Source: a virus
Strand: one strand, 5' to 3'
Length of the DNA: 45,962 nt
Virus record (IMG/VR): IMGVR_UViG_3300004369_000033
Span: 1-45,962 of that record
Under the pieces are notes generated by a model that was not told the DNA's origin, did not search any database, and saw only the letters and a list, made by a program, of their open reading frames with translations. Shown in pieces: positions 3,736-45,452 of this stretch. The position numbers and the translations under genes are program-made. The stretch's first letter is position 1; every line of letters starts with the position of its first letter.

Positions 3736-3758
3736 GTCAATCGTTACAAGAGGATGCT

Positions 3759-4256: not shown

Positions 4257-4258
4257 TC

Positions 4259-5839: not shown

Positions 5840-6358
5840 ATGAACGATGATGCATTTTCACGACTCGTAGCCGAGGAAGTCAAGAATCGCGTGAGCAGAA
5901 ATCAGCGCGATTACTTGATGTTGCCCGATAACTGGGTGCGCTGGCAGCGTGCGCTATTGGCGCTTGTCCAGAACCTCGATTCGCAAATTGTTCGTCTGGA
6001 TTCCGATGAGTCCGCCGATAGAGACAGGTATGAATCTCTTGGTGAGGATGGAGTCAAACTGCTCGCCGAAGCACTATCTGATTACGAAATTAGACGGTCC
6101 AAGATCACGCGGTTTAAATTCCACGTAGATAAGCGGTTGGATGAGGTCAGCCGGATGATCGCGTTGGGAGATGAGTCCGCAGACGAGGACACCACGGCTC
6201 ATGCATTTCTGCGCAAGGCCGTGCAAAAACATAGGGAGCTTCTGGAAGAGTACGATCTCGAAGCAACCCCCATTGACCTTGCCCTCTGGGATTCGCTAGA
6301 AGGTAGATGGTCTTTTGAATCCGTAGAAATAGATGAGTTCCTATCTAGCGACGAATAA
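5840..6358 (+). CDS. Hypothetical helical protein
   Basis: A 172-residue protein from ATG 5840, three bases after the stop of the nuclease; ATG 5825 and TTG 5816 are in-frame alternatives without a better ribosome binding site. The sequence is charged and helix-rich, with likely coiled-coil character in the middle (LLAEALSDYEIRRSKITRF, KAVQKHRELLEEYDLEA). No membrane segment, cysteine cluster or catalytic motif is visible and I do not recognise a family. It sits in the tightly packed DNA-metabolism module between a nuclease and a glycosyltransferase, so a role in DNA transactions is possible but unproven. Confidence 0.72.
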   Translation: MNDDAFSRLVAEEVKNRVSRNQRDYLMLPDNWVRWQRALLALVQNLDSQIVRLDSDESADRDRYESLGEDGVKLLAEALSDYEIRRSKITRFKFHVDKRLDEVSRMIALGDESADEDTTAHAFLRKAVQKHRELLEEYDLEATPIDLALWDSLEGRWSFESVEIDEFLSSDE

Positions 6359-6362
6359 GCGA

Positions 6363-9429: not shown

Positions 9430-9952
9430 CAAACCACACGGAACTCACGCTCGGTACTCCAGGGGCTGCCGTTGTCAGAATTGTAGGGTAGCTCATCGCA
9501 ATTATGAACGCGATGCCGCTCGACGGCGTCGGCGGGTCAAGTACGGCATTGAGGTGCCAACCAGCATGTATGTGCCTGTTCATGAGGCCCAAGAACATGT
9601 CAAGTTTCTCTCCACGCGAGGGATAGGACTTGGCGCTATTGCGAAGCAGGTTGGAGTTCCTCGCTCGACAATTCAACACATCAAGCGCGGCACTCATGAG
9701 CGCACCAAAATCGATCTTGCTGAAAAAATTCTTGCCGTTCCCGCAATACCTCGGGAGCCGATGTCCTACACGAGTGCTGAGCCTATTAAGAAGTTGCTGT
9801 TCGAATTGGAGAAAAAGGGCATTAGCAGCAAAGAGGTGGGTCGAATCCTTGGTTGCCGGTATGGCGATTTACGGATTAAGGAGAGCATGCGAGTATGGCG
9901 GTTCAAGCAAGTCGAGGCAGTGTGTAAAGAATTGTTGAGGTTAAACCCATGA
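9416..9952 (+). CDS. Cys-rich helix-turn-helix DNA-binding protein
   Basis: A 178-residue basic protein from ATG 9416 (GAGG lies just upstream), overlapping the ParB-like gene by 14 bases. The N-terminus has the pattern HGT..RYSRGCRCQNC (Cys18, 20, 23) followed by a run of arginines, a form common in actinobacterial and actinophage DNA-binding proteins. A helix-turn-helix follows (GLGAIAKQVGVPRSTIQHIKRG), and a second possible HTH lies near KGISSKEVGRILGC. It may act as transcriptional regulator or as the DNA-targeting part of the ParB/PP-loop cassette. Its stop overlaps the start of the PP-loop gene. Confidence 0.8.
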   Translation: MRTSNKPHGTHARYSRGCRCQNCRVAHRNYERDAARRRRRVKYGIEVPTSMYVPVHEAQEHVKFLSTRGIGLGAIAKQVGVPRSTIQHIKRGTHERTKIDLAEKILAVPAIPREPMSYTSAEPIKKLLFELEKKGISSKEVGRILGCRYGDLRIKESMRVWRFKQVEAVCKELLRLNP

Positions 9953-11115
9953 CCAGACAGCGGATGTTCTTGGATATCGATTGCGTGGAGGCTGCTCGTC
10001 AGCGCATGCGTCACGTTTATGACACTTTCGACACGGTGTGCGTGCAGTTCTCTGGTGGAAAAGATTCAACGGCCGCCCTGTACCTGGCCAAAGAGATCCA
10101 CGAAGAGCGTGGCCTGGGTCCAGTCAAGGTTATTTTTCGTGATGAAGAGATGGTTAGCCCGCTAGTCATTGATTTCATTGACAAGGTTCGTCAGTACGAC
10201 TGGGTCGATATGGAGTGGTACTGCCTGCCGATGAGTCAGGAAGTCTGGGTTCTCGGTCGACGAGAGTTTTGCTTGCTGTGGTCAAAGCAACGCGAAAAAG
10301 ATGGTCGCTTGGTCAGGAAGATGCCGCCATTTGCCATCAGGGCAGAGCATTTCGGCCTTGACCCCAACCAAGTAATACCGGAGTCGGTGGACTATTACAC
10401 GATGCAAGGAAAGAAGGGCAAGACGGCTTTTGTGACCGGCGTTAGAGCAAACGAATCAATGATTCGTTATAGGTCTTGCGTTCAAAAACTGCACGAAAAT
10501 TACATCGTGCATCCGTACAAACTTGCTAAGTCGGTTCCACTCAAGTTTGCAAAAGTGATCTATGACTGGACGACAGATGACGTCTTGAAGTTCATCACTG
10601 AAGAACACGGCGCTGAGTACTGCGAGTTCTATGATCTCGCCGCAATAACCGGCTCCAACACCCGAGTCGGCATCCCACTCCACGCCGTAGCGATTCGACG
10701 CATTGGAGATGTGGTCAAGACCGAGCCAGAGTTCTATGACGAGCTTGTTCGGTGTTTTCCGCATATTGACGCTCAGCGCCGTTGGTGGCCAGAGTTCGAT
10801 ATCGAGAAACTCATCAAGCGTTATTCCGACGGCGGCTGGGATGGCGTTCGCAAGTGCATCGATGATAACTTCATTACTCCGGGTAAGCGGATGCGCGCAC
10901 AAGCCTTTTCCGCTGAATTTAGAAAGAAGCATGCTCGAGACCCCAAGTCTTATCCGATTCACTGGTTGGTCAGGAATTTGCTTCTAAACGAAATCACACC
11001 ATCGACGGCGGTAAGTCCAATCGGTCCAGGGACGAAGGCTTACACGCTTCAGATGAAAGAAGCACAGCAGCAAGCGGAGTTGAACAGCCTTGATATTCAG
11101 GATGATGAGGTCTAG
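9949..11115 (+). CDS. PAPS-reductase-family PP-loop protein (IbrA/DndC-like)
   Basis: A 388-residue protein with the PP-loop SGGKDST at residues 35-41, the ATP-pyrophosphatase signature shared by PAPS reductases, DndC and IbrA. Other recognisable parts are KVIFRDEEMVSP after the loop, FVTGVRANESMIRYR near the middle (the helix after GxRxxES contacts substrate in this superfamily), and YDWTTDDVLKFI. The long C-terminal half (WWPEFDIEKLIKRYSDGGW, SYPIHWLVRNLL) is unlike plain CysH and fits IbrA-type proteins. It adenylates or transfers sulfur to an unknown substrate. Flanking ParB-like genes on both sides and tight overlaps suggest one functional unit, possibly nucleic-acid modification. Sulfate assimilation is unlikely since no cys genes accompany it. 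Confidence 0.85.
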   Translation: MTRQRMFLDIDCVEAARQRMRHVYDTFDTVCVQFSGGKDSTAALYLAKEIHEERGLGPVKVIFRDEEMVSPLVIDFIDKVRQYDWVDMEWYCLPMSQEVWVLGRREFCLLWSKQREKDGRLVRKMPPFAIRAEHFGLDPNQVIPESVDYYTMQGKKGKTAFVTGVRANESMIRYRSCVQKLHENYIVHPYKLAKSVPLKFAKVIYDWTTDDVLKFITEEHGAEYCEFYDLAAITGSNTRVGIPLHAVAIRRIGDVVKTEPEFYDELVRCFPHIDAQRRWWPEFDIEKLIKRYSDGGWDGVRKCIDDNFITPGKRMRAQAFSAEFRKKHARDPKSYPIHWLVRNLLLNEITPSTAVSPIGPGTKAYTLQMKEAQQQAELNSLDIQDDEV

Positions 11116-13811: not shown

Positions 13812-13860
13812 TTTCGCAAGTTGAACATCTAGCCCCACTTTGCGGGAGCGGAGGAAGCCA

Positions 13861-15321
13861 ATGCCCGGCGTAGTCGTAACAACCGCAGTTCGCACCGGTC
13901 CGTCATCAGCCAACGTAACGCCTTCAGCAACCTTCTTTGTTGTTGGCCAGACCGAGCGCGGTCCGTCGGACGAGGCTGTCCTGGTTACGAGCATTGCGGA
14001 TTTTGAAGAAAAGTTCGGTAATTACGTATCCTACGGATACGTACACCCACAGGTCCAGACCTACTTCGAAGAGGGTGGCGCTCAGGTCTATGTATCTCGA
14101 GTCGTCGGAGCCAGCGCAACTGTTGGAACCCTTGACATCGACAACACCGCTGCTGGAACGGCCTTCACGCTGACGGCAGTAGGAGCTGGCGATTGGTCAG
14201 AAAACCTCAAGGCTCAGATCGTCGCCGCTGGCGCTGGTTTTGCCGTTCGGCTCTTCTTGGAGGAGAGCGGAGTTGACACGCTCGTGTACAACTCGGGCGA
14301 ATGCGCTTCAGCAACAATTGCGGTGAACAAGATCAACACCAGCCCACTTGCCTCCTCGTACTGCACTGCGGCCGTTGGAACCGGCACCCCAGCAACAATG
14401 GGAGCTGCCGAGGCCTTCTCGGCCGGCGACGACGATCGTGCCTCGATTGTTACCGCCGACTACGTCGATGGAATGGATCTGTTCCTCGACACCTTCGGTG
14501 CTGGAGCCGTGGCCATCCCCGGCCAGAACGGTTCGACGATTTGGGACGCAATGATTGAACATTGCAATACAAATCATCGAATTGCACTCTGTGCTTTCTC
14601 CGAGGCTGAGACGTCGAGCAACGCAATCACCGAGGTTGCCGCCTACGCCGACGCTGCGAACGCAGAGCATGCCGCCTTCTTCTACCCCTGGGTGCAGATC
14701 GAGCGTGCGCAGAACGTGCTGATGTACATTTCACCAGAGGGATACGTGGCCGCCAAGCGTGCCGCCGCTCAGAACTCTGTTGGACCTTGGCAGCCTTATG
14801 CCGGACTTCGCTCTGAGGCCAGCTTCGTGCTTGGACTGAAGACGGCGATCAGCAAGGCTGTTGGTGACGACCTGGACGAGGGTCGGGTTAACGCCCTCCG
14901 AGTGATCAATGGTCGAGTCCGCATCTACGGCGCTCGCACGGCATCCAACGATGAAGTGAACTTCCGCTACATCACAGCCCAGGAAATGCTCAACTACGTG
15001 GTTGTTGAGGCTCAGGCCCAGCTTGAAGACCTCGTGTTCTCGACCATCGATGGGCGTCAGACGCTCTTCTCGAACGTCAAGAGCCGACTCACCAACCTGC
15101 TCGACCCAATTCGCATCGCCGGCGGATTGTACGAAGCTTTCGATAACACTGGACGCCGAATTGATTATGGCTACAGCGTTGTCGTAAACGAGGCAATCAA
15201 CCCAGTGTCGCAGCTGGCTGGCGGCCTCATCCGTGCCAAGATCGGAATCCGCGTGTCAAGCGTCGGTGACCAAATCGAGGTCTCGGTCACTAAGTCCAAT
15301 CTCACGGCATCAGTAGTCTAA
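13861..15321 (+). CDS. Tail sheath protein
   Basis: A 486-residue contractile sheath subunit. The ATG at 13861 has GGAGG six bases upstream; the longer TTG start at 13840 would include the ribosome binding site and is rejected. Typical features are the start PGVVVTT, TFFVVGQTERGPSDEAVLV, FEEGGAQVYVSRVVG, and the conserved C-terminal region with RVNALRVINGRVRIYGAR, FRYITAQEMLNYVV and LAGGLIRAKIGIR, where C-terminal strands interlock neighbouring subunits. It forms the outer tube that contracts and drives the tail through the envelope. This gene defines the phage as a myovirus. Confidence 0.93.
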   Translation: MPGVVVTTAVRTGPSSANVTPSATFFVVGQTERGPSDEAVLVTSIADFEEKFGNYVSYGYVHPQVQTYFEEGGAQVYVSRVVGASATVGTLDIDNTAAGTAFTLTAVGAGDWSENLKAQIVAAGAGFAVRLFLEESGVDTLVYNSGECASATIAVNKINTSPLASSYCTAAVGTGTPATMGAAEAFSAGDDDRASIVTADYVDGMDLFLDTFGAGAVAIPGQNGSTIWDAMIEHCNTNHRIALCAFSEAETSSNAITEVAAYADAANAEHAAFFYPWVQIERAQNVLMYISPEGYVAAKRAAAQNSVGPWQPYAGLRSEASFVLGLKTAISKAVGDDLDEGRVNALRVINGRVRIYGARTASNDEVNFRYITAQEMLNYVVVEAQAQLEDLVFSTIDGRQTLFSNVKSRLTNLLDPIRIAGGLYEAFDNTGRRIDYGYSVVVNEAINPVSQLAGGLIRAKIGIRVSSVGDQIEVSVTKSNLTASVV

Positions 15322-26565: not shown

Positions 26566-27378
26566 ATGACCGTTACAAACTCCACAAGACTGGGCCTGAT
26601 CTACTGGAGTTCGGACGCAGACCCCGTCACCCGAGAACAATTCCAGGAAAGCCACGAAGCCCTGGAAAACTTTGCCGTCAAAATGACGACAGGGACGACC
26701 CTCCCTACCCCTGCAGCCACATATGAAAAGTCGCTGTTTTACAAGACTGACACACAAATTCTCTACTACTACCAGGGAACTGGATCATCCGGAACCTGGG
26801 TGCCGGTTAATAACTTTGGTGGCACCGTACAAGGCCTAACGCTAGGCGGGTCCACCTCGGCTGGATCCTCTACCTTTGCCGCCCGTGCGGACCACGTCCA
26901 TGCTGTCCCCTCGGCAATATCAAACACCATTGTCAATGCCAAGGGCGATATCATTGCAGCGACGGCAAATGATACGGTGACAAGAATTGCCGTAGGAACC
27001 AATGGACAGGTACTGGCTGTCAATAGTTCTACGTCTACTGGCCTAACTTGGCAAGATCCTGCGTCAACGCTGATTGTTTCGGCGACTATGCCGTCGTCAC
27101 CCGTAGAGGGTGACATTTGGTTTGACACCAATACTGGACGTCAGTTTGTTTACTACGACAGCTTCTTCGTCGAGATGGGTACTGCGTCTGACCTCGCAGC
27201 TGATGTCATTGACGCAAAGGGCGACCTGCTGGTCGGCACTGCAGCCAACACTCTTGACAGATTGCCGGCTGGTACTGATGAGCAGGTTTTGATTGTCGAC
27301 TCTAGCGAGACTGCCGGTGTAAGATGGGCCGACCCCGCGAGTGGTTTCGAAAAAACATTTTTGTTGATGGGAGCATAA
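26566..27378 (+). CDS. Tail fibre protein with KGD-type repeats (cassette I)
   Basis: A 270-residue fibre protein. The N-terminus (SDADPVTREQFQESHEALE) probably attaches to the baseplate. Two ~45-residue repeats follow the pattern AKGDhh-GTAxxTxxRh-GTxxQVLxxxSSxxxGhxWxxP, around residues 120-170 and 217-262. Between them is a SSPVEGDIWFDTNTGRQFVYYD module that recurs in the genes at 32993 and 39851. The end, KTFLLMGA, resembles the PFLLMGV end of the gene at 43198. It opens the first of three adhesin cassettes. The same repeat occurs in the genes at 39851 and 43398. Confidence 0.8.
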   Translation: MTVTNSTRLGLIYWSSDADPVTREQFQESHEALENFAVKMTTGTTLPTPAATYEKSLFYKTDTQILYYYQGTGSSGTWVPVNNFGGTVQGLTLGGSTSAGSSTFAARADHVHAVPSAISNTIVNAKGDIIAATANDTVTRIAVGTNGQVLAVNSSTSTGLTWQDPASTLIVSATMPSSPVEGDIWFDTNTGRQFVYYDSFFVEMGTASDLAADVIDAKGDLLVGTAANTLDRLPAGTDEQVLIVDSSETAGVRWADPASGFEKTFLLMGA

Positions 27379-27708
27379 ATGCCTACAGTGTACAGAGTCT
27401 TGGGGCAGTCAGCTCCTTCGGCAACAACTGCAACAACTATTTATACAGTACCTTCTAGTACTCAGACTGTTGTGTCGAGCATAACTGTCTGTAATCGGTC
27501 GGCAAGTAATGCTACGTATCGAATTTCCATCCGTCCGGATGGGGCTGTCCTAGCCAATCAGCATTACTTGATCTATGATGCGCAAGTACTTGCAAACGAT
27601 ACGGTAACCCTAACTCTGGGAATTACAATGGATGCTGCCGATGTTTTAGAAGTTTATGCTTCTTCTGCAGAAATTTCATTTAATTTATTTGGTTCGGAGA
27701 TTTCTTAA
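27379..27708 (+). CDS. Small beta-sandwich fibre-associated protein (cassette I)
   Basis: A 109-residue, almost all-beta protein (TTIYTVPSSTQTVVSSITVC, NATYRISIRPDGAV, NDTVTLTLGITMDAADVLEV) ending in SFNLFGSEIS. The protein at 43760 is a diverged paralogue with the same length and layout (VTTTIVLGCQAAN, LTVRADGTND, ILKARTASADDLHLTLSILEIS). Such small proteins occur among phage fibre genes and probably form a trimeric or decorating fibre domain. It is directly followed by the glycine-rich tip gene, as is its paralogue. Confidence 0.7.
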   Translation: MPTVYRVLGQSAPSATTATTIYTVPSSTQTVVSSITVCNRSASNATYRISIRPDGAVLANQHYLIYDAQVLANDTVTLTLGITMDAADVLEVYASSAEISFNLFGSEIS

Positions 27709-28581
27709 ATGACAGCAATACCCGTTAATAAATTAGGTCTCTCGGGTTCGGGCAAAACTAGAAACGCAAATTTTGTTCCGGCATCCACGGAGATTCTTTG
27801 GAGCGCGAGTCCATCTCCAGCGGTTACCTCAACGCCATTTACTAAAAATTCAGAAGAATTCATACTTTTAAAGGTCACTGCTAGCACCACTCTCTCTTTT
27901 TCCGGGATACATCCCTCAATACCAGTTCCTAGTAGCGCCTATGCCGATGTTCTTATTGTTGGTGGTGGCGGCAGTGCTTCGGGTCAGGGCGGCGGCGGTG
28001 GTGGTGGTGTTTTACTAAAAACAACATCTCTGACAAACGGACCATACCCATTAACTGTAGGTGCAGGCGGCGGCAACCCTTCCTCTGGTTTTTCCCATAC
28101 TGCAACTGGCGGCGGTGGTGGTGGCGGTGGCAGTGGTGGTTCTGGAGGGGGGGCAAATATTGCTCCCCCGGTCTACCCAAGTCAATTAAGTGGCGGTAGT
28201 GGCACTGGCGCCCCAACTTATCTAGGTTTTCCGGGGGGTTCCACGAGAAGCATATATAGCCCAACGATTCCAGCAGTAGTTGGTGGAGGGGGAGGCGGCG
28301 CAGGTGGAGCGGGCCTTGGCGCCTCTACTGTAAGTTATAGCGGAAACGGCAGTGGTGGTTCAGGTCGCGTCTTTTTCGATTTTTTCGGTCCGGGCGTGGT
28401 CGCAGTTGCCGGCGGCGGTGGTGGTGGCGGCGGACCGGCTGGCAATGCTTCAGGTGGCATCGGTGGGGGTGGATCGGGCGGAGGCGCAGGCGGGAGCGCA
28501 ACAGGTGGTGGTGGCGGCGCACCAGGCGGCGCCGGTGGCAGTGGTGTAATTTACGTTATGTTCAAGAGGTTCCAGGGATAA
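27709..28581 (+). CDS. Glycine-rich adhesin/fibre tip (cassette I)
   Basis: A 290-residue protein: a ~75-residue beta-type N-terminus (FILLKVTASTTLSFSGIH) leads to YADVLIVGGGGS and then about 190 residues dominated by glycine runs separated by variable polar segments, ending with GGSGVIYVMFKRF. The same design (short beta domain, ADV/EYVVVAGGGG, glycine runs, SGIVIhR end) is shared by the proteins at 40983 and 44086. Glycine-rich tips of T4-like gp38 adhesins pack as polyglycine helices and present variable loops to the receptor; that mode is inferred here. G-runs of six and seven bases (28233-28238, 28147-28153) are potential slippage sites. Confidence 0.8.
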   Translation: MTAIPVNKLGLSGSGKTRNANFVPASTEILWSASPSPAVTSTPFTKNSEEFILLKVTASTTLSFSGIHPSIPVPSSAYADVLIVGGGGSASGQGGGGGGGVLLKTTSLTNGPYPLTVGAGGGNPSSGFSHTATGGGGGGGGSGGSGGGANIAPPVYPSQLSGGSGTGAPTYLGFPGGSTRSIYSPTIPAVVGGGGGGAGGAGLGASTVSYSGNGSGGSGRVFFDFFGPGVVAVAGGGGGGGGPAGNASGGIGGGGSGGGAGGSATGGGGGAPGGAGGSGVIYVMFKRFQG

Positions 28582-28943
28582 TGGCACATTTTGCAAAAAT
28601 CAATGAGGACAACATAGTTGAAGCTGTAGTTGTTGTGTCAAACGACGACCTGCTCGACGCAAAGGGTATCGAGCAGGAGCAGCAGGGCATTGAAGTTTGC
28701 AACAATGTGTTGGGTTCTGGTCGCTGGGTGCAAACTTCCTTTAATGCATCCTTCAGAAAAACTTTTGCTCATCCTGGTTATTTCTACGATCAAGAATTGG
28801 ATATTTTCTATAATCCAACACCCCCTCATCCATCGTGGACGCTTGATGAGAACTTTGATTTTCAGCCTCCCGTAGCAAAACCTGCGAGCGGAATCCATAT
28901 TTGGGATGAGCCGACGCTGTCCTGGATACAATTGCCGTCTTGA
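28581..28943 (+). CDS. 'MAHFA'-type fibre-associated protein (cassette I)
   Basis: A 120-residue protein, TAATG-coupled to the glycine-rich tip gene. The pattern MAHFAKINEDNIVEAVVVV, NDDLLDAKGIEQEQQGIEV, GRWVQTSFNASFRKTFAHPG and YFYDQELDIFYNP is known from aquatic phages, particularly cyanophages, among fibre genes. The same N-terminal domain occurs at 41714 and 45045, each time directly after a glycine-rich tip. This constant pairing suggests it binds, folds or caps the tip protein. Confidence 0.78.
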   Translation: MAHFAKINEDNIVEAVVVVSNDDLLDAKGIEQEQQGIEVCNNVLGSGRWVQTSFNASFRKTFAHPGYFYDQELDIFYNPTPPHPSWTLDENFDFQPPVAKPASGIHIWDEPTLSWIQLPS

Positions 28944-28957
28944 TTTTTTAGTTCGCC

Positions 28958-28986
28958 TTGACGGTTGTATGCGGGGTTATTAGATT
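28958..28986 (+). promoter_or_regulatory. Near-consensus promoter for oxygenase genes, probably leaderless
   Basis: TTGACG (28958-28963), a 17-base spacer and TAGATT (28981-28986) form a good sigma70-type promoter. The ATG of the first oxygenase follows six bases after the -10 box, so transcription would begin at or within a base or two of the start codon. No Shine-Dalgarno is present. This gives the oxygenase genes their own transcription unit inside the fibre region. Confidence 0.68.
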
Positions 28987-28992
28987 TATCTC

Positions 28993-29589
28993 ATGTCCGA
29001 AAAAGAACCCCTAATTGCTAAGGCGCTATTTGACGACAAGACCCATAGCGGCATAATTGACTTTGTCAATAAGCGGACTCCGCTAATGTCATTGCAGGTC
29101 GATGAAACCACCTTTATTAGAAAATATAGCCACAATACTCCATTTTTTGTTTCCATCCATCGCCATCTTTCAGATTTTGCATCCGAGCAATTTGGCGAAC
29201 CTTTAAAGCCGTCTTATGTTTTTCTATCAATGTATGAAGACGGCGGAATATGCCCGCTTCACATCGATCGGCCACAGTGCTATCGCACCATTGACTACCT
29301 AATCACGCAGGACGACCAAGAACCGTGGCCAATTTTAATTGGCGAGCCAATGAGCAACGAAGATCGAGAAAAGCTTGTAGAAAGCAACGCCTGCCATCCC
29401 AAAGAAGATTCAGAAATTGCCGAACGCATTGCTGCGGAAACTTGGCACGAGGTTCTCCTGATGCCCAATGATGCCGTCCTTTACTCGGGAACTCACTCAT
29501 GGCACTACCGCCCGAAGCCTATAAAGGGCAAGGCAACGCTTGTATTTTTCCACTTTGTCCCGGAGGCATTCGATGGTCCGCTCGACTAA
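28993..29589 (+). CDS. 2OG-Fe(II) oxygenase 1
   Basis: A 198-residue protein of the cupin-type 2-oxoglutarate/Fe(II) dioxygenase superfamily. The iron ligands appear as CPLHIDRP (His90, Asp92) and SGTHSWHYRPK (His168 or His171, with Arg173 for 2OG binding), followed by the strand ATLVFFHFV. VLLMPNDAVLYSG is the strand before the distal His. It would hydroxylate an unknown substrate using O2 and 2-oxoglutarate. First of three neighbouring, mutually diverged oxygenase genes; overlaps the second by 17 bases. Confidence 0.8.
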   Translation: MSEKEPLIAKALFDDKTHSGIIDFVNKRTPLMSLQVDETTFIRKYSHNTPFFVSIHRHLSDFASEQFGEPLKPSYVFLSMYEDGGICPLHIDRPQCYRTIDYLITQDDQEPWPILIGEPMSNEDREKLVESNACHPKEDSEIAERIAAETWHEVLLMPNDAVLYSGTHSWHYRPKPIKGKATLVFFHFVPEAFDGPLD

Positions 29590-30211
29590 GCCCGTCAATC
29601 TCACTGTCGATCTACCGAAACTTGGCAGGGCTGACGCACCCGGTGGAGGCTGGCATTTCAAGCAGGACTTCCCGCACGAATGGTGCTGGTTCATCGACGC
29701 CTTCACCCCAGCCGAACTGGACGCCATCATCCGCATCGGCGAACAGATTGAGATGGACAAGGGTGTAACTGGTGGCAGCAATTCACCCAAGGTCCGTGAC
29801 TCCTATGTGTCGTGGCTCTTTCCGAACGAAGTGACAGGCTGGGTGTACGAACGCATGGCCGGTGTCGTCACTGCCATGAACGAACAGTTCTACGGATTCG
29901 ACCTGGACGGCTTCTTCCAAGGATTCCAGTTTACCAAGTACACCGCACCAGGCCAGCACTACACCTGGCACGTCGATCGTGGCGGTGGACATGGTGTCCG
30001 CAAACTCTCGGTTTCGTTGCTGTTGTCCGACCCTGACGACTATGAGGGTGGAGACTTGCAGTTGAAGTACGGCGAAGATGAGCAGACGGTTGAACGGAAG
30101 AGGGGAATGATGACGCTGTTCCCGTCCTGGTCACTTCACAGGGTCACGCCTGTTACGAAGGGAACTCGCTACTCGCTGGTGGCGTGGGTTAGTGGCCCGC
30201 CGTTCAAGTGA
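29573..30211 (+). CDS. 2OG-Fe(II) oxygenase 2, prolyl 4-hydroxylase-like
   Basis: A 212-residue protein from ATG 29573, which has CGGAGG six bases upstream; longer starts overlap the previous gene without support. It matches the P4Hc type: FIDAFTPAELDAIIRIGE, SYVSWLFPNE, FTKYTAPGQHYTWHVDRG (His133, Asp135), SVSLLLSDPDDYEGGDLQL and LFPSWSLHRVTPVTKGTRYS (His189, Arg199), all ligands present. Enzymes of this type hydroxylate proline or related residues in proteins. The DNA is visibly more GC-rich than the two flanking oxygenase genes, suggesting separate acquisition. Candidate substrates are the Gly-X-Pro stretches of the adhesin at 40983. Confidence 0.88.
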   Translation: MVRSTKPVNLTVDLPKLGRADAPGGGWHFKQDFPHEWCWFIDAFTPAELDAIIRIGEQIEMDKGVTGGSNSPKVRDSYVSWLFPNEVTGWVYERMAGVVTAMNEQFYGFDLDGFFQGFQFTKYTAPGQHYTWHVDRGGGHGVRKLSVSLLLSDPDDYEGGDLQLKYGEDEQTVERKRGMMTLFPSWSLHRVTPVTKGTRYSLVAWVSGPPFK

Positions 30212-30726
30212 TCTGCATGAAGTCTAGTATTAAGGTTATAGACAATGCCCTCAGTTGCGAGGAGGCCGATCGCCTTGAGTCGGTAATCTGCTCGCAGAAA
30301 TTCCCTTGGTACTTTAGCGATAAGATAAATGGCGACGACTATCCGTCAAATAAGGAAACGGGCGACTTTCAATTTACTCATCCCATCTTTAGCTATGACT
30401 CGCCCTTAACTGACCTCGCGCCACTTTTCATGCCTCTTGTGCATATGTTGCACCCAATACAGGTGATCCGCATGAAGGCAAATCTTAATACCCAACACCC
30501 AAGGAAATTGGTATATGGGTTTCATCGCGATCTACCGGTCGAACATAACGAAAAAATCGCTATTTTCTACCCAACGACAGCCGATGGCCCCACCGTGTTT
30601 GAGGACGGGTCATCTGTCGAGGCAGTCAAGAATAGGCTAGTATTATTTCCATCTTCGGTACTACACTCTGGAACAACGCCCGTTACGACCAAGTGTCGCA
30701 TTGTGGTCAACATGATCTACCAGTAG
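30208..30726 (+). CDS. 2OG-Fe(II) oxygenase 3
   Basis: A 172-residue protein from GTG 30208, overlapping the previous stop (GTGA); ATG 30217 is an alternative. Iron and 2OG ligands are seen in YGFHRDLP (His106, Asp108) and SSVLHSGTTPVTTKCRIVVNM (His153, Arg164), in the expected order and spacing. The start, IKVIDNALSCEEADRLE, resembles many phage oxygenases. Mutational or horizontal divergence from its two neighbours is strong, so the three are not recent duplicates. Substrate unknown. Confidence 0.8.
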   Translation: MICMKSSIKVIDNALSCEEADRLESVICSQKFPWYFSDKINGDDYPSNKETGDFQFTHPIFSYDSPLTDLAPLFMPLVHMLHPIQVIRMKANLNTQHPRKLVYGFHRDLPVEHNEKIAIFYPTTADGPTVFEDGSSVEAVKNRLVLFPSSVLHSGTTPVTTKCRIVVNMIYQ

Positions 30727-30809: not shown

Positions 30810-31154
30810 GTGATTTCAGGCGTCCATAATTTCACGATCGATCAGGGCGCCACTTTCTCTAGGACCATTACTGTCAAGAATTATGACGAGTCTCTTTATA
30901 ACCTGACTGGTCATACTGCCCGCATGCAGATCAGGCGTCAGATTGAAGACACTACTGTCATGCTTGAGCTAACTACAGAAAATGGTCGGATCACACTAGG
31001 TGGGGCGGCTGGAACGATCGAGCTACTCATTACCGCTGCCGATACATCCACGCTGACAACCAGTGGGGTATACGACCTCGAATTGGTCGAGGGCGCCGTA
31101 GTCAAGAGGCTGATTAGAGGCAACATCAATTTGAATCTCGAGGTCACCCGATGA
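30810..31154 (+). CDS. Fibre/baseplate-attached beta protein
   Basis: A 114-residue protein from GTG 30810 with TGGAG six bases upstream. The sequence HNFTIDQGATFSRTITV, then YNLTGHTARMQIRRQIEDT and a strand series ending GNINLNLEV is a well-known small beta protein of aquatic T4-like and other phages, found next to fibre genes. It may form a neck, collar or fibre adaptor domain; no precise function is established from the sequence. Its stop overlaps the next start (ATGA). Confidence 0.68.
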   Translation: MISGVHNFTIDQGATFSRTITVKNYDESLYNLTGHTARMQIRRQIEDTTVMLELTTENGRITLGGAAGTIELLITAADTSTLTTSGVYDLELVEGAVVKRLIRGNINLNLEVTR

Positions 31155-39850: not shown

Positions 39851-40981
39851 ATGGGAACTCGTAAAAACTTCGTAGTACCTGGTGGATTGACGATTGACTC
39901 GTCAACGCTTTACGTCGATGACCCCAATAACCGCGTTGGAGTAGGCAAGACCAACCCAGATCATGAACTCGATGTAGCGGGGGTAATTAGAGCGTCTAAC
40001 GGTGTAGTCACGCTAACTAGCGCCGGCACCCCATCAGCCACTTTGCCAGATGGTGCAATCGCCATCGACACCACAAATGCAAAGCTCTTCTTCCGCTCTG
40101 GGTCTACTTGGAACGAGGTAACTGGAGGGGGCGGCGGCGGTGGTGGAGGTTCTCTTACAGTTGCAACAACAGCACCAAGCTCGCCCTCAGAAGGCGATCT
40201 ATGGTTCGAATCCGATACCGGAATTACATTCGTTTACTATGACTCGTTTTGGGTCGAAATCGGACCAAATGTTGTTGACAACCTTTCTGCTCAAGTTACA
40301 ACTAAGGGCGATATTTTAGTTGGGAACACCACCAACGATCTCGATCGCCTCGGAGTCGGAACAGACTCCTATATTCTTACCGCTGACAGTTCAGCTACAT
40401 ACGGCCTTATGTGGAAGCCGCCGTACGACATAATGACTGCCAAAGGAGACTTGATAGCTGGCGGGGGTGTAGATAGCGCTGGGATTGTCAGTATAGGGAC
40501 ACAAGATTCTTTGCTTGTTGCCGATACTGCTAGCGGACAGGGGATGAAGTGGACCCTTCAGCCGCAAAACCTACTACTGACCAAGTCCGTTTGCGTGAGT
40601 CTAAAGGAAAAGTGGTCCGTGACAGCAACGGTCGCTACTGGAACGGTAAACTTGGACTGCGCAGACTATGGGGCATTTTATTTTACGGCTAGTGCTTCGG
40701 CCGACTGGACATTCAATTTAAGAGGCAGTGCGATTTCCTCTTTTTCAGATATCGTGTCTGTTGGTGAATCTTTGACGGTTGCTATTTTAGTAACAATTGG
40801 TGCAACTGAATACAGACCAACTGTCATACAAATTGATGGAGCAACACAAACCGTAAAATGGCAAACCGGTAACGCCCCTACCATTGGTAATATAAACTCT
40901 ATTGACGCCTATTTATTCACTGCTATTAGAACCGGATCAAGTACTTATTTAGTAACCGGTAGCCAAACAAAGTTTGCCTGA
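39851..40981 (+). CDS. Tail fibre protein with KGD-type repeats (cassette II)
   Basis: A 376-residue fibre. The N-terminal part (GGLTIDSSTLYVDDPNNRVG, GAIAIDTTNAKLFFRSGSTW) is stalk-like and ends in a glycine run. Then come the SSPSEGDLWFESDTG / FVYYDSFWVE module shared with the 26566 and 32993 proteins, two KGD-type repeats (TTKGDILVGNTTNDLDRLG; AKGDLIAGGGVDSAGIVSIG), and a C-terminal beta domain (EKWSVTATVATGTVNLDCA, STYLVTGSQTKFA) shared with the 34933 protein. It opens the second adhesin cassette, preceding a glycine-rich tip gene. Confidence 0.8.
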   Translation: MGTRKNFVVPGGLTIDSSTLYVDDPNNRVGVGKTNPDHELDVAGVIRASNGVVTLTSAGTPSATLPDGAIAIDTTNAKLFFRSGSTWNEVTGGGGGGGGGSLTVATTAPSSPSEGDLWFESDTGITFVYYDSFWVEIGPNVVDNLSAQVTTKGDILVGNTTNDLDRLGVGTDSYILTADSSATYGLMWKPPYDIMTAKGDLIAGGGVDSAGIVSIGTQDSLLVADTASGQGMKWTLQPQNLLLTKSVCVSLKEKWSVTATVATGTVNLDCADYGAFYFTASASADWTFNLRGSAISSFSDIVSVGESLTVAILVTIGATEYRPTVIQIDGATQTVKWQTGNAPTIGNINSIDAYLFTAIRTGSSTYLVTGSQTKFA

Positions 40982-40982
40982 C

Positions 40983-41714
40983 ATGCCCACAGTTTCTTCC
41001 TTCGGTAATTTATCTGGTGGTGGCACCGGACCCGGTCGAGGCCCCAACAAAAGTACGTTAGTCTCCAGTCCAGCGCCAGCAATGACCAAGACAAGTTATG
41101 GAGACTATGTTATTTACACGTTTAACGCAACATCAACATTTGCTGTTGTTGGTAGAAGCTCTAGTTCTGTAGATGTATTTCTAGTTCAGGGTGGTACGCC
41201 TGGAGGTGGCCCAGTTGGACAAAGTTTTCCAGGCGCTGCCGGCGGCGCTGGTGGGGCAAGAAAAACTGCTACTACTACTATCAACGCATATAATAGTTAT
41301 CCTGTTGTTATCGGTGGGGCTTCAACTCACTCAACATTAGGGCCACTAACGTCTTCGGGTGGAACTGCTGGTGGCGCTGGTGGCGCTGGTGGTGGCCCTG
41401 GTGTCCCTGGTAGCCCTGGTGGCCCTGGTCCAACAAATAATTACCGAACTGGTTCTGCCGTAAACTATGGCGGCGGAGGCGGAGGTGGAGGCGGCGGGAA
41501 CATCGGCACCTTGCAGCCGGGGGGTTCAGGTGGCGCTGGGGGTGGCGGTGGTGGTAACGGTGGTGCTGGAACTGCCAACACGGGTGGTGGCGGTGGTGGT
41601 GGCTCTGGTGGTTATCAGACGTCATTCAAAGGCCCATGGGTTCCTGGTGGACCTGGAGGTCCTGGAGGATCGGGAATAGTTGTCATCAGAGCGCCAAAGG
41701 ACTATTTTGAGTAA
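40983..41714 (+). CDS. Glycine-rich adhesin/fibre tip with collagen-like triplets (cassette II)
   Basis: A 243-residue protein from ATG 40983; the TTG at 40974 overlaps the upstream gene. After a beta-type N-terminus (TSYGDYVIYTFNATSTFAVV, SSVDVFLVQGG) it is dominated by glycine runs and ends GGSGIVVIRAPKDYFE. Around 41390-41435 Gly-X-Pro triplets occur in a row (GGP GVP GSP GGP GPT), and another Pro-rich stretch (VPGGPGGPGGSG) near the end. Pro in the third position before Gly is the classical site of prolyl 4-hydroxylation in collagen, which links it to the P4H-like gene at 29573 by inference. Confidence 0.78.
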   Translation: MPTVSSFGNLSGGGTGPGRGPNKSTLVSSPAPAMTKTSYGDYVIYTFNATSTFAVVGRSSSSVDVFLVQGGTPGGGPVGQSFPGAAGGAGGARKTATTTINAYNSYPVVIGGASTHSTLGPLTSSGGTAGGAGGAGGGPGVPGSPGGPGPTNNYRTGSAVNYGGGGGGGGGGNIGTLQPGGSGGAGGGGGGNGGAGTANTGGGGGGGSGGYQTSFKGPWVPGGPGGPGGSGIVVIRAPKDYFE

Positions 41715-42772
41715 TGGCCTACTTCACGGAACTTGACGATGATAACTACGTAATTCGAGTTATTTCAATCAACAATGAAGACATCCTAGATGAGGACAAT
41801 AATGAGTCTGAGGATAAGGGGATTGAAATATGCATAAGCGCGTGTGGTCCGGGCAGATACGTCCAAACGTCGCGCAATACAAAAAATAACGTTCATTACG
41901 ACCCAGATACCTGGACACCTGACGGCGGGGTCCCATTCAGGCGAAATTTTGGAGACGTTGGATTTTTATACTCAGATCTACACGACTGTTTCTTGCCCCC
42001 ACCACCAGAGGCCTGGTACGAGCTTGACGAAAACTTAGAATGGGTTTGTCCATCGGACATAGGGCCTAAGACTGGTCAGCCATTCACTCACGAAGAACTC
42101 TTGTATATAGGTCACTTAGTCAATACCTCGGAGATTTATTCTCTTGTTCCTTTGTCTACCCCCAACGAAGACCCACTATCAACTATTTGCAGCACAACAG
42201 AATTCGCAATATCAGATATAACCGAAATCACGCATGGGGTAAATACTCACACCTGGTTCTATCTGGACGAACAGGGGAACTTTAACATTGATTATCAGGA
42301 CGACTATTCAATCGAACTTGACCTTTCTCCTATAGCAGTAATAACTAGATTTTCGCTAAAAACAGGCATCGAGAAGTCCAATGCTGTCAGTAAATTTTGC
42401 TACGAACAGCATCCGCAAAATGAGTCATTCAGCATTCATGAGTGTTTTAGAATGATTATCGAGTGGGCATTTTCTTACACTGATTTGAATAATAGTGAAC
42501 CGATGGCCGAGCTGGCTCACAATTTCCTGAGATGCGTTCAAATGCCGTTGAATGTTAGAAATGAGCTAATAAATTCGGTTGAGTCACAAGTAGTTGGTCT
42601 GTACTTGACTGATGACGATATTTACAAACCATTTTACCGTACTGAAAAAACGGAAATGCCAATCCTTTTCTCGGACTGGTACCAAAATATCAAAAACCAA
42701 TTTCCGGCGAGAGAGACGGGCGACGCGTTACCAGTAGATCTAAACTCACTTCCAGCGAGCTACCCCAAGTGA
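41714..42772 (+). CDS. 'MAHFA'-type protein with a unique C-terminal domain (cassette II)
   Basis: A 352-residue protein. The first ~115 residues match the MAHFA domain (AYFTELDDDNYVIRVISIN, NEDILDEDNNESEDKGIEIC, GRYVQTSRNTK, FRRNFGDVGFLYSD), with a short insertion compared with copies at 28581 and 45045. About 235 further residues follow that the paralogues lack: beta-rich first (THTWFYLDEQGNFNIDYQD, SIELDLSPIAVITRFS), then helical (FSIHECFRMIIEWAFSY, MAELAHNFLRCVQMPLNVR). I do not recognise this domain. The gene is AT-richer than its neighbours. Confidence 0.72.
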   Translation: MAYFTELDDDNYVIRVISINNEDILDEDNNESEDKGIEICISACGPGRYVQTSRNTKNNVHYDPDTWTPDGGVPFRRNFGDVGFLYSDLHDCFLPPPPEAWYELDENLEWVCPSDIGPKTGQPFTHEELLYIGHLVNTSEIYSLVPLSTPNEDPLSTICSTTEFAISDITEITHGVNTHTWFYLDEQGNFNIDYQDDYSIELDLSPIAVITRFSLKTGIEKSNAVSKFCYEQHPQNESFSIHECFRMIIEWAFSYTDLNNSEPMAELAHNFLRCVQMPLNVRNELINSVESQVVGLYLTDDDIYKPFYRTEKTEMPILFSDWYQNIKNQFPARETGDALPVDLNSLPASYPK

Positions 42773-43197: not shown

Positions 43198-43398
43198 ATG
43201 GCTGTTCGAATTATTGTACGCAACGGAACATCTTCTCAGTGGTCTTCAGAGAATCCTCTTTTGTCTGAGGGCGAGCTGGGTATCGAAAGCGATACCAAAC
43301 ACTTAAAAGTTGGCAATGGCGTTGATAACTGGAATGACCTCAGTTACTGGTACATTGGTGATCGTCCCCTTAGTCCGTTTCTGTTGATGGGTGTCTGA
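43198..43398 (+). CDS. Short Mtd_N-like fibre protein
   Basis: A 66-residue protein composed of one Mtd_N-type module (RIIVRNGTSSQWSSENPLL, GELGIESDTKHLKVGNG, WNDLSYW) and a short end SPFLLMGV. The end recalls KTFLLMGA of the 26566 fibre and HPFFL of the gene before. It overlaps the start of the next gene by one base. Probably a short fibre or an attachment adaptor. Confidence 0.68.
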   Translation: MAVRIIVRNGTSSQWSSENPLLSEGELGIESDTKHLKVGNGVDNWNDLSYWYIGDRPLSPFLLMGV

Positions 43399-43760
43399 TG
43401 CCTACAAGAATTCAATTCAGAAGAGGAACTGCTGCCCAATGGACATCTGCTAACCCAGTGTTGGCCGAAGGTGAATTGGGCCTCGAGACCGATACTCAAA
43501 AATACAAAATTGGCAACGGCACTGACACGTGGTCCAGCATTTCCTACCAGAGTCTTCCAGGCAATGCTTTTGACATAACCGACATCAACGCGAAGGGCGA
43601 TTTGATGGTTGGTTCTGCGGACAATTCGGCGGCAATTTTGCCTGTTGGTTCCAATGGCCAGCTACTTGTGGCCGATTCGTCAGCTGCAAATGGTGTAAAA
43701 TGGGCAAACCCCGTTGACGTGGGCGATATAGCCCTCGTAATTGCTCTTGGAGGCCTATAG
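43398..43760 (+). CDS. Short fibre with Mtd_N module and KGD-type repeat (cassette III)
   Basis: A 120-residue protein. The first half is the Mtd_N-type module (RIQFRRGTAAQWTSANPVL, GLETDTQKYKIGNGTDTW) and the second half one KGD-type repeat (NAKGDLMVGSADNSAAILPV, GQLLVADSSAANGVKWANP). It therefore joins two modules otherwise found in separate fibre genes (34933 and 26566). It starts the third adhesin cassette; its stop overlaps the next GTG. Confidence 0.75.
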   Translation: MPTRIQFRRGTAAQWTSANPVLAEGELGLETDTQKYKIGNGTDTWSSISYQSLPGNAFDITDINAKGDLMVGSADNSAAILPVGSNGQLLVADSSAANGVKWANPVDVGDIALVIALGGL

Positions 43761-44083
43761 TGGCAAACACGTTTAAAGTTGTGACTTACTCAGTCAGCGC
43801 CTCCCTAACCGACTTTTATACAACTCCTGCTGTAACGACGACCATTGTTTTGGGTTGTCAGGCCGCAAACATGACCCCGTCTTCCGCAACATGGCTGACG
43901 CTGACCGTTAGAGCCGATGGAACAAATGACATCAGTCTCGTCGAACAAGTAGCAGTTCCAGCCAAGTCGACAATTTCTCCAGTTACAGGAAAATTAGTTC
44001 TGGAGGCCGGAGACATTCTTAAGGCAAGAACAGCATCCGCCGATGACCTTCACTTGACTCTGTCAATTTTGGAGATTTCGTAA
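43760..44083 (+). CDS. Small beta-sandwich fibre-associated protein (cassette III)
   Basis: A 107-residue all-beta protein from GTG 43760, paralogous to that at 27379: same length, TTPAVTTTIVLGCQAAN, WLTLTVRADGTND, KLVLEAGDILKARTAS and the end LTLSILEIS. As at 27379 it stands between a KGD-repeat fibre and a glycine-rich tip, which supports cassette duplication. Confidence 0.7.
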   Translation: MANTFKVVTYSVSASLTDFYTTPAVTTTIVLGCQAANMTPSSATWLTLTVRADGTNDISLVEQVAVPAKSTISPVTGKLVLEAGDILKARTASADDLHLTLSILEIS

Positions 44084-44085
44084 AT

Positions 44086-45045
44086 ATGAAAGATAACAAT
44101 GGCGGTATTCTCGGCTCCTATAACGAAGCCAGTGTACTTAGCGCGCCTGGCGTATGGAACCTCGAAGAGCAGTATAAGTTTGGCAAGGCCAACCAGTGGC
44201 CGGGAGCATTGTCGTTCTCCGTAACTCCAAGCTCCTCCTATGAGTATTTCGCTGATGACACGTACATCGGGCTGGTATTTACTGCAAGCGCTACATTCAC
44301 AGTAGATGCAGGATCATCAGACCTCGAGTATGTAGTAGTAGCAGGTGGTGGTGGTGGTGGGCATAGCTCGGTAAATGCCGCCGGCGGGGGTGCAGGAGCT
44401 GGCGGTTACAGAACCGGCACTTTTCCAGGTTTCGGTCCTGGGACGTACCCCATAACAATCGGTGGTGGCGGGAATGGTGGAACCAGCCCTGGCGCTCCTT
44501 CTCAGCCGACCGCTGGATCGCCCTCCGTATTTCACAACATAACCTCAGCTGGCGGCGGCATTGGGGGTTGGCCCGCTAATGGCGCAGGCGGCAACGGTGG
44601 TAGCGGTGGGGGGGGAGGTACTTCTTACAACGCGGGAACAGGCGTGGCTTACACTCTTTCTGGTCTCGGCGGTTCCGGTAACACACCCCCTACTTCACCG
44701 CCCCAGGGCAATAATGGAGGCAGGGGGGCATATGAGTCTACGCCACCAGGGAACTTTGCAAGTGGTGGTGGCGGTGGCGGTGGCGGTGCTGGAGGTGCTG
44801 GAGGAAACACCAATGCGCCAGCAATGTGGGGATTTGGAAACCCTGGCCCTGGAACAACAAATACTTGGGACGGTTCATCACGTACGCTTGCTGTGGGAGG
44901 GATTGGCGGCTCTTCTGGCGGTGGTCCCGGAACTCCGGGGTCAGCCAATACTGGCAATGGTGGTGGCGGCGCTGGTGGCGTTTCCCCCCAAAACCCTGGT
45001 GGTTCTGGAGGTTCTGGAATAGTTATTCTTAGGTGGACCAAGTAA
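44086..45045 (+). CDS. Glycine-rich adhesin/fibre tip (cassette III)
   Basis: A 319-residue protein with a beta-type N-terminus (SFSVTPSSSYEYFADDTYIG, TASATFTVDAGSSDLEYVVV) followed by long glycine runs with intervening polar, Pro-containing loops (GTFPGFGPGTYPITIGGGG, NPGPGTTNTWDG) and ending GGSGIVILRWTK. It is the longest of the three tips. An uninterrupted run of eight G at 44608-44615 lies in the coding sequence and is a good candidate for slippage. The Pro-rich ORF on the opposite strand is a shadow. Confidence 0.8.
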   Translation: MKDNNGGILGSYNEASVLSAPGVWNLEEQYKFGKANQWPGALSFSVTPSSSYEYFADDTYIGLVFTASATFTVDAGSSDLEYVVVAGGGGGGHSSVNAAGGGAGAGGYRTGTFPGFGPGTYPITIGGGGNGGTSPGAPSQPTAGSPSVFHNITSAGGGIGGWPANGAGGNGGSGGGGGTSYNAGTGVAYTLSGLGGSGNTPPTSPPQGNNGGRGAYESTPPGNFASGGGGGGGGAGGAGGNTNAPAMWGFGNPGPGTTNTWDGSSRTLAVGGIGGSSGGGPGTPGSANTGNGGGGAGGVSPQNPGGSGGSGIVILRWTK

Positions 45046-45452
45046 TGGCCCATTTTGCTGAAATTGATGACAACAATGTTGTTGTGAGAATTGTAGTGAT
45101 AGACAACGCTGCTTTGCTTGACGAATCAGGCAATGAAAACGAAAGCTTGGGAAAAGCAGAGTGTCTAAGAATTTTTGGTGAAGGTAGATGGGTTCAGACT
45201 TCCTACAATAATCAGCTTCGGCGTCGATTTGCTGGAATCGGATATACCTATGATGAAGGGAAAGACGCGTTCATATCCCCGAAACCATCAGACAATCATG
45301 TGCTTAATCCAATTTCCCTATCTTGGTATATCCCAAATAAACCAGAATTCAAATGGGACGAAGATCAGTCTGAGTGGGTTTTAGTAGAGTGGGTGGATCC
45401 TAATTTATTCGTTGAGAGCTACCATTCAAACCCCAACCCGGGAGCTGAGTAA
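45045..45452 (+). CDS. 'MAHFA'-type fibre-associated protein (cassette III)
   Basis: A 135-residue protein from ATG 45045, TAATG-coupled to the tip gene. It has the full pattern MAHFAEIDDNNVVVRIVV, DNAALLDESGNENESLGKAE, GRWVQTSYNNQLRRRFAGIG and YTYDEGKDAFISPKP, the best match in the window to the type seen in cyanophages. The C-terminus (FKWDEDQSEWVLVEWVDP) differs from the copies at 28581 and 41714, so the end is the variable part. Confidence 0.8.
   Translation: MAHFAEIDDNNVVVRIVVIDNAALLDESGNENESLGKAECLRIFGEGRWVQTSYNNQLRRRFAGIGYTYDEGKDAFISPKPSDNHVLNPISLSWYIPNKPEFKWDEDQSEWVLVEWVDPNLFVESYHSNPNPGAE

Follow-up and report, generated by a model that had tools for sequence, protein, structure and literature searches.

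The DNA analysed here is a viral sequence of 45,962 bases (IMG/VR record IMGVR_UViG_3300004369_000033; the whole stretch is hereafter called the window), and its fibre region contains three consecutive, closely packed open reading frames (ORFs) on the + strand, termed A, B and C, which encode predicted 2-oxoglutarate (2OG)-Fe(II) oxygenases, as a first-pass annotation of the sequence had described for positions 28958-30726. Occurrence of A, B and C is linked to a single fibre cassette, consisting of the genes for a glycine-rich protein (G) and a small protein (D), and the proline content of G follows the occurrence of A. It is quite probable that the enzymes act on a fibre or adhesin protein, and the reading of A, B and C as a virion-protein hydroxylation module carried with adhesin genes is slightly favoured; proline of G, the preferred target since G is rich in proline in loci with A, has about an even chance of being the residue modified. 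The genes concerned are the following.

26566..27378, + strand: I, fibre-region protein ahead of G (PHROG matches including the tail fibre family phrog_38058)
27379..27708, + strand: J, small fibre-region protein (phrog_1276, 7e-10; tail fibre phrog_693, 5e-6)
27709..28581, + strand: G, glycine-rich fibre-region protein, proposed substrate (phrog_2295, 1e-17; composition; Gly_rich_2 below cut-off)
28581..28943, + strand: D, 120 amino acids, follows G (phrog_7759, 8e-33; model with predicted local distance difference test (pLDDT) 91)
28958..28986, + strand: sigma-70-like hexamers TTGACG-N17-TAGATT, claimed as promoter (frequency no higher than in shuffled sequences)
28993..29589, + strand: A, predicted 2OG-Fe(II) oxygenase of 198 amino acids, phrog_2954 (invariant ligands; predicted fold)
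29260-29268 and 29503-29505, + strand: ligand sites of A, H90-x-D92 and H171; also R173 (alignment)
29573..30211, + strand: B, 2OG-Fe(II) oxygenase of 212 amino acids, PKHD / prolyl-4-hydroxylase type, phrog_61 (PF13640, E 3e-18, above cut-off)
30217..30726, + strand: C, predicted 2OG-Fe(II) oxygenase of 169 amino acids (phrog_274, 6e-39; alternative start GTG at 30208)
30810..31154, + strand: E, control gene, next in the fibre region (phrog_1084, 1e-23)

Association of the oxygenase genes with the G-D cassette

Genes of the A, B or C type were detected in 33 of 80 IMG/VR loci carrying D, versus one of 26 loci of the control gene E (Fisher 2e-4), and after removal of near-copies in 26 of 60 versus one of 21 (Fisher 1e-3); G was present in 70 of the 80 D loci. 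Among the 26 control loci, L147 contains a match to B, and in L149 G and D stand as a pair with no oxygenase genes. A baseplate control scan yielded two loci, neither with A, B or C.

Locus scans using A alone (L002-L009, of which L002 and L003 are near-copies) and B alone (L010-L014 being closest) led to the same kind of locus: in all 13 close loci A immediately precedes B and D lies upstream, and G is upstream in 12; B overlaps A by 17 nucleotides (nt) in the window, and the same overlap occurs in seven of these 13 relatives. All loci containing A also contain B, both among the 80 D loci (13/13) and among 44 further loci described below (26/26). In two cyanophages A and B form one protein: gp197 of ACG-2014f, labelled ferrochelatase, has 362 amino acids with A at 16-170 and B at 196-363, and S-SCSM2R_301 has A at 15-169 and B at 304-430 (numbered from the preceding stop codon). 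Likewise, the first half of phrog_3531 (362 positions) is matched by A-type and the second half by B-type proteins. The near-constant company of A and B and their fusion in two phages make it most likely that the two cooperate. A separate gathering of the three genes, as suggested earlier, does not fit the joint occurrence of A and B, and may hold for C.

Consecutive trios of A, B and C in other orders are present in the IMG/VR loci L028, L266, L267, L272 and L277, with G-D upstream of the trio by about 0.5 kb in four of these five contigs and D on the other side in L028, and also in Pelagibacter phage Mosig, where the order is B-A-C and a G-type gene lies upstream with no match to D. A survey of 34 deduplicated A loci, restricted to the families listed, showed that at least 26 of the 145 other neighbours belong to 2OG-FeII_Oxy_5 and at least four to Oxy_3 (the sets may overlap), and among control neighbours (104 of 141 ORFs) at least one Oxy_3 member was listed. 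Given the frequency of 2OG families among A-locus neighbours, rows of 2OG genes are common in marine phages, and a row of three is not unusual there: three such genes are consecutive in P-SSM7, five in HTVC008M (counting its 'ferrochelatase') and six in Mosig (five by profile, the sixth by annotation). The proposal of a modification module connected with the fibres is, in turn, borne out by the order G-D-oxygenase, the control gene, the recurring trios, the A-B fusions and the proline content of G.

The association also bears on the published view of such genes as auxiliary metabolic genes (accessible text of PMC3037559, PMC9599517 and PMC11561400), proposed for 2OG and 'ferrochelatase' genes of cyanophages and pelagiphages, according to which the enzymes would reduce the 2-oxoglutarate of the host or have a part in iron/haem or nitrogen metabolism. 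The location of some A relatives among replication genes is consistent with this view, but the oxygenases are tied to one fibre cassette, the composition of G follows A, and the predicted fold of A is not that of a ferrochelatase; a metabolic role is accordingly considered improbable.

Proline content of G and the proposed target

G of the window has 34.7% glycine over 248 profile-matching residues and 21 prolines in 290 amino acids. The proline signal was spotted by looking across all 20 residues of G and was then tested. Median G proline per locus was 6.9% in 29 loci with A versus 2.3% in 49 loci without A (p 4e-11, area under the curve 0.95), the latter class meaning only that A was not seen, because IMG/VR contigs are fragments; the next strongest change was that of Asn (p 9e-4). 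Where a B-type gene was present and A was not (12 loci), G proline was 3.0%. Other ORFs of the same loci had 4.0 versus 3.6% proline (29 versus 48 loci, p 0.15), and D had 5.8 versus 5.2% (28 versus 48 loci, p 0.43). When loci without A were restricted to those with at least 4 kb after D, which dropped 21 loci including the proline-rich L034, L104 and L114, the 27 rows with A ranged from 4.6% upwards and the 25 rows without A reached up to 5.5%; phylogenetic regression on this strict set gave t 5.66 with fitted lambda and 3.34 under Brownian motion. The A label changes 10 times on the D tree, at least five of them on firm branches. These comparisons control for kinship in part. Loci with A were abundant in the sample used to build the profiles, and homology within G is loose owing to its low complexity.

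A rule of 5% proline, fixed beforehand, was applied to fresh loci from two new scans. These returned 129 new loci, of which 44 shared little with earlier ones; two of the 44 had no G, 14 were cut off and 28 were scored. Of 25 loci with A, 24 had at least 5% proline in G, and two of three without A fell below (Fisher 0.023).

Named records were also compared, namely 13 of the 35 records listed with D, hand-chosen as distinct phages, together with HTVC033P and Mosig; A was sought across the whole record, and P-RSM4 and S-TIM4 (7.3%) belong to the discovery set instead. G proline in records with A was 6.1% in S-MS29, 6.5% in Bellamy (whose A lies outside the fetched stretch), 7.2% in S-CAM8, 7.8% in HTVC023P, 4.4% in HTVC008M, 6.1% in HTVC033P and 5.0% in Mosig. 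In records without A it was 2.8% in ct2KA10, 3.6% in DSL-LC04, 2.4% in CRP-207, 2.0% in HTVC025P, 1.2% in ctNMl277, 2.0% in Melnitz-3 and 1.5% in CRP-143; the fetched stretch of Greip contained no G. The seven records with A (4.4-7.8%) and the seven without (1.2-3.6%) do not overlap, a split with a chance of 2 in 3432 (two-sided, kinship ignored). Other 2OG genes are annotated in DSL-LC04 and ctNMl277, which have no A and little G proline.

The oxygenases may alternatively act on another target of the fibre region, such as D, other fibre subunits or Asn, Asp or Lys residues, with G proline being a lineage trait of a cassette that travels with A-B. This fits the presence of D upstream of A in all 13 close loci and the clustering of the A label on the D tree, where only five independent pairs are available, about two agreeing, none opposing and three tied. 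Proline is, however, by far the strongest of the 20 residue changes in G, D shows neither a proline difference nor a telling residue, the slope holds in the strict-set phylogenetic regression, and Pelagibacter phages fall in both classes with G proline as predicted, so that a different fibre-region target is regarded as rather unlikely. D as the only substrate was rejected for want of a diagnostic residue or proline difference. The D model gave no PDB fold match at E<=0.001, and the PDB sequence matches of G, mostly antibody chains (best 0.011), were discarded.

Several observations weigh against hydroxylation of G proline by A and B. The proline difference was tested only after the scan of all 20 residues, and besides the clustering and the scarcity of independent pairs just described, the regression falls to t 2.65 (fitted lambda) and 1.94 (Brownian motion) when contigs cut near D are counted as lacking A. 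The fresh-locus test had three loci without A, one of them proline-rich, HTVC008M lies below the 5% mark despite having A, and in L007 a G with 1.1% proline stands beside another with 7.5%. No residue of D tells loci with A from those without. A lacks the usual basic residue for 2OG binding in the alignment, and the solved folds closest to it act, judging by their titles, on free amino acids or natural products. S-ShM2, S-E7 and S-RIM44 have an A relative and no match to B within the fetched stretch, the A relatives of S-ShM2 and S-E7 sit among replication genes, and the A-B fusion of ACG-2014f is near ribonucleotide reductase genes; as some A relatives thus lie away from fibre genes, not every member of the A family need act on fibres.

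The two G genes of L007 are located at 2822-3757 and 4474-5589, and the proline-rich one adjoins D-A-B.

Hydroxylation of G as proposed would take place late in infection, when A and B, a chain of the prolyl 4-hydroxylase (P4H)/PKHD type with A as its partner, each with its own iron site, would bind fibre protein soon after its synthesis and hydroxylate its side chains before the fibre folds into a glycine-rich tip of polyglycine-II or collagen-like structure. The model of the tip draws on the chemistry of collagen and polyglycine-II. The richness of the fibre protein in proline where the gene set occurs suggests that the enzymes may hydroxylate the fibre, much as animals hydroxylate collagen. 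Hydroxyproline could make the fibre stiffer, provide extra hydrogen bonds for receptor binding or serve as a handle for decoration, and C would hydroxylate another site or residue. A broader proposal, advanced tentatively and with somewhat less than even confidence, is that of a mobile 'hydroxy-adhesin' system of marine tailed phages in which the A-B pair, often with C, would install hydroxyproline in Gly/Pro-rich receptor-binding fibres as a counterpart of collagen maturation, across unrelated phages and hosts, and which would be the identity behind much of phage 'ferrochelatase' (phrog_2954) and part of phrog_61.

If A and B do modify fibres, genes frequently counted among the 'auxiliary metabolic genes' of marine phages, as 2OG oxygenases are, would be host-recognition genes and not metabolic genes. 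The reading of two published observations would then change, as far as the accessible text of each goes: a time series of 2024 that found phrog_61 and phrog_2954 ('ferrochelatase') to be among the three gene classes enriched in seasonal phages (PMC11561400), and the report of adjacent ferrochelatase-oxygenase pairs in pelagiphages (PMC9599517). A link between A and G proline was not found in print, and literature on hydroxylated phage fibres of this kind was not noticed, with no search aimed at the A-B fusion and supplementary files outside the scope.

Predicted identity of A, B and C

The first-pass annotation had proposed hidden Markov model searches for each protein, and these gave a clear Pfam assignment for B, matches below cut-off for C, and no matching Pfam or NCBIfam model for A. 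It had also described HxD...H...R/K ligands in all three proteins, which was confirmed for B and C; in A the HxD...H part stands and the usual basic residue does not. In an alignment of 25 sequences H90, D92, R93, C96, H171, R173 and H187 of A are invariant, among others, and the basic residue expected about 10 residues past the distal His is not present; R173 (H+2) or H187 (H+16) may replace it in binding 2OG. The AlphaFold2 model of A (pLDDT 94.7) was compared with PDB structures (1000 chains, all Z >= 5), and the top folds were HalA (Z 17.1, root-mean-square deviation (rmsd) 2.6, 181 residues aligned), followed by HalD, HalB, BesD and a hydroxylase homologue (7jsd, Z 16.6, rmsd 2.7, 182 aligned), with prolyl hydroxylases next, for example PHD2 (Z 15.2, rmsd 2.9, 168 aligned). 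On this predicted structure, A has the double-stranded beta-helix of the superfamily, to which PF13640 also assigns B, and is a member of a 2OG-Fe(II) oxygenase family that has no Pfam or NCBIfam model. Retention of Asp in the iron triad is characteristic of hydroxylases rather than halogenases, and since A has kept this Asp it is expected to be a hydroxylase.

A belongs to phrog_2954, which PHROGs names 'ferrochelatase', a name used in many GenBank records. The 'ferrochelatase' proteins of S-ShM2 and P-RSM4 are members of phrog_2954 like A and have the same invariant residues; the 'putative ferrochelatases' of the pelagiphages HTVC033P and Mosig match the A protein of locus L016 (57 and 40% identity) as well as the A profile, and in the viral structure library BFVD the model of A matched an S-SM1 'Ferrochelatase' (rmsd 1.5 over 155 columns). 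Identity of A as a ferrochelatase was rejected, as A and six relatives have no Pfam match and the model has a 2OG fold. Correction of this name is not wholly new because the S-SCSM2R record already names one A-family member a 2OG oxygenase. PDB sequence matches of A were ferritin at chance level (E 0.27 and worse), and a scan of genome contigs with A detected no relative.

Regarding B, the ligands H133-x-D135...H189...R199 are invariant in 17 sequences and the best matches are PiuC (4e-12) and Sbal_3634; the B profile also matches P4H structures (E 1e-11 to 4e-9), although PiuC scores better, and B stays below the NCBIfam cut-offs (79 versus 143 bits). The start of B is most likely ATG 29573 behind GGAGG and not TTG 29540. 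The ligands of C, H103-x-D105...H150...R161, are invariant in 19 sequences, its Pfam matches are below cut-off (PF13640, 0.01; DUF6445, 1.5e-4), and its profile matches P4H (0.006) and PHD2 weakly; C and two of its three relatives matched 2OG models, one above cut-off, and on profile evidence C is a 2OG-Fe(II) oxygenase. Identity with the T4 endonuclease V (denV) was rejected, no such Pfam model being matched by C and three relatives. The three proteins differ strongly, as previously noted: of the three pairs, B and C alone match each other in BLAST with E below 0.1 (33 residues, E 3e-5), and an origin of the trio by duplication was discarded, no clear similarity being found beyond B-C.

Modification or repair of DNA or RNA bases would be suggested by the filing of phrog_274, the family of C, under DNA metabolism as 'DNA endonuclease V', by weak matches of B to two PHROGs named 'endonuclease V', and by the presence of AlkB in the Foldseek list of A. 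Yet AlkB ranked under the antibiotic-pathway and amino-acid oxygenases in that list and was not among the best 50 of the 1000 fold-comparison rows, no DNA-base dioxygenase model (TET/JBP, AlkB) was found among the Pfam, PHROGs and NCBIfam matches of A, B and C, and the genes sit in the fibre region, which makes a nucleic acid substrate very improbable. DNA, one of the targets considered in the first-pass annotation, finds no support in these matches; host glycans, another of them, keep some probability as a target.

Known systems, surrounding genes and window layout

Rows of 2OG genes in fibre regions of marine phages are already in the databases, and the clusters of P-SSM7 (032-034), P-RSM4 (048-055), Mosig (55-60) and HTVC008M contain the same families in the same kind of place (annotated as T4-GC 412, 615 and 100/611). 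These clusters have so far been read as metabolic genes; the window, which also carries a tail-sheath gene at 13840-15321, has a terminase that ranks nearest to Gordonia phages (43.6%). Such rows are under-counted because A-type and C-type members carry other names. For S-SCSM1, 24 2OG-Fe(II) oxygenase genes are given in the accessible text of PMC9602691.

The prolyl 4-hydroxylase of PBCV-1 is a viral 2OG enzyme of the P4H family, a type that B resembles, and the B profile matches 5c5t 'Prolyl 4-hydroxylase', which we take to be the PBCV-1 enzyme, at 1e-11. This Chlorella virus enzyme was reportedly described by Eriksson in 1999, with hydroxyproline reported by experiment. PBCV-1 is an algal virus with a single enzyme, whereas in the window the A-B(-C) genes of a phage adjoin a glycine-rich fibre gene. 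PMC9301287, which cites the work of 1999, mentions viral P4H and collagen in tail fibres in passing. B further resembles the PKHD-type hydroxylases PiuC and YbiX and the P4H of P. putida (4iw3/4j25; 4iw3 matched at 1e-9), and A shares the fold of HalA/HalB/HalD/BesD with their hydroxylase homologue and of PHD2 at about 10% identity. T4 endonuclease V and ferrochelatase have only the PHROG label in common with C and A, respectively; the tested members of phrog_2954, phrog_3531 and phrog_274, which bear the names 'ferrochelatase' or 'DNA endonuclease V', look like 2OG oxygenases.

Evolution on different hosts of the cyanophage S-TIM4, which has A and for which virion mass spectrometry exists, led to mutations in 20 genes, of which 14 encode virion proteins; all but two of the eight with named function were tail fibres or baseplate, and the 2OG gene ORF23, read by the authors as nutrient-related, was one of the six others (PMC6224464, accessible text). 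ORF23 adjoins a gene that carries a tail-fibre annotation and shows a distant likeness to B (50 bits), and its mutation may be taken as indirect support for fibre hydroxylation.

Genes for possible decoration enzymes were found near the oxygenases in some relatives. Glycosyltransferase family 2 (GT2) genes directly follow B in L004, L007 and L009 and a DegT aminotransferase gene does so in L008; a carbamoyltransferase gene follows A in L021, and the fibre locus L092 has a tryptophan halogenase gene (PF04820, 2e-106) at 2946-4433, between B and C-A. An annotated carbamoyltransferase on the opposite strand lies between G and B-A in P-RSM4, S-TIM4, S-MS29 and S-CAM8 (L039, L043, L295, L297). Behind the A-B fusion of S-SCSM2R (228299-235529, L155) come annotated glycosyltransferases, a GT25, a radical SAM maturase, an aminotransferase-like gene and a further 2OG gene, surroundings that look like a larger decoration cluster. 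Of these neighbours of the module, the glycosyltransferase, carbamoyltransferase and halogenase genes fit the further-decoration role suggested above for hydroxyproline.

Such neighbours, the radical-SAM gene behind the fusion and the likeness of the A fold to HalA/BesD would also accord with the oxygenases working alongside glycosyltransferases and hydroxylating sugars or small molecules by which fibres or the host surface are decorated. These genes are a minority, however, with at least four GT2, at least two tryptophan halogenase, at least one carbamoyltransferase and at least one DegT gene among the families listed for the 145 neighbours, versus at least two GT2 genes for the 104 control neighbours, and none was seen directly beside the trio of the window; this explanation, too, has a low probability.

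The hexamers TTGACG-N17-TAGATT, with a -10 box ending 6 nt before the start codon of A, are present as first described, with 8 such sites in the 10 kb scanned versus 8.9 +/- 2.6 in shuffled sequences. Since this is no better than chance, a transcription unit of its own is not supported for the trio; relatives also leave little room between D and A, the gap being 11-38 nt in six of the 13 close relatives (those with D within 200 nt) and 49 nt in the window, and D lies farther than 200 nt from A in the other seven.

The cassette (I)-(J)-G-D is present three times in the window (26566-28943, 39851-42772 and 43398-45452). The oxygenases follow only the first, but proline is abundant in each of the G proteins (6.9, 8.1 and 8.1%). 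The second and third cassettes include the following genes.

40974..41714, + strand: second G-type gene, 8.1% proline, no oxygenase match beside it (profile match, composition)
41714..42772, + strand: second D-type gene, 352 amino acids, D domain N-terminal (phrog_7759, 3e-19)
44086..45045, + strand: third G-type gene, 8.1% proline (phrog_2295, 2e-37)
45045..45452, + strand: third D-type gene (profile match)

The G+C content of A, B and C is 46.9, 57.1 and 46.7%, respectively. Since the values of A and B lie within 0 to 7 points of each other in the 13 close relatives, a gap of 10 points is particular to the window, and G+C was rejected as a proof that the genes had separate origins. Glycosyltransferase-like and PAPS-reductase-like genes are located in the first quarter of the window, at 6333-7448 and 9949-11115.

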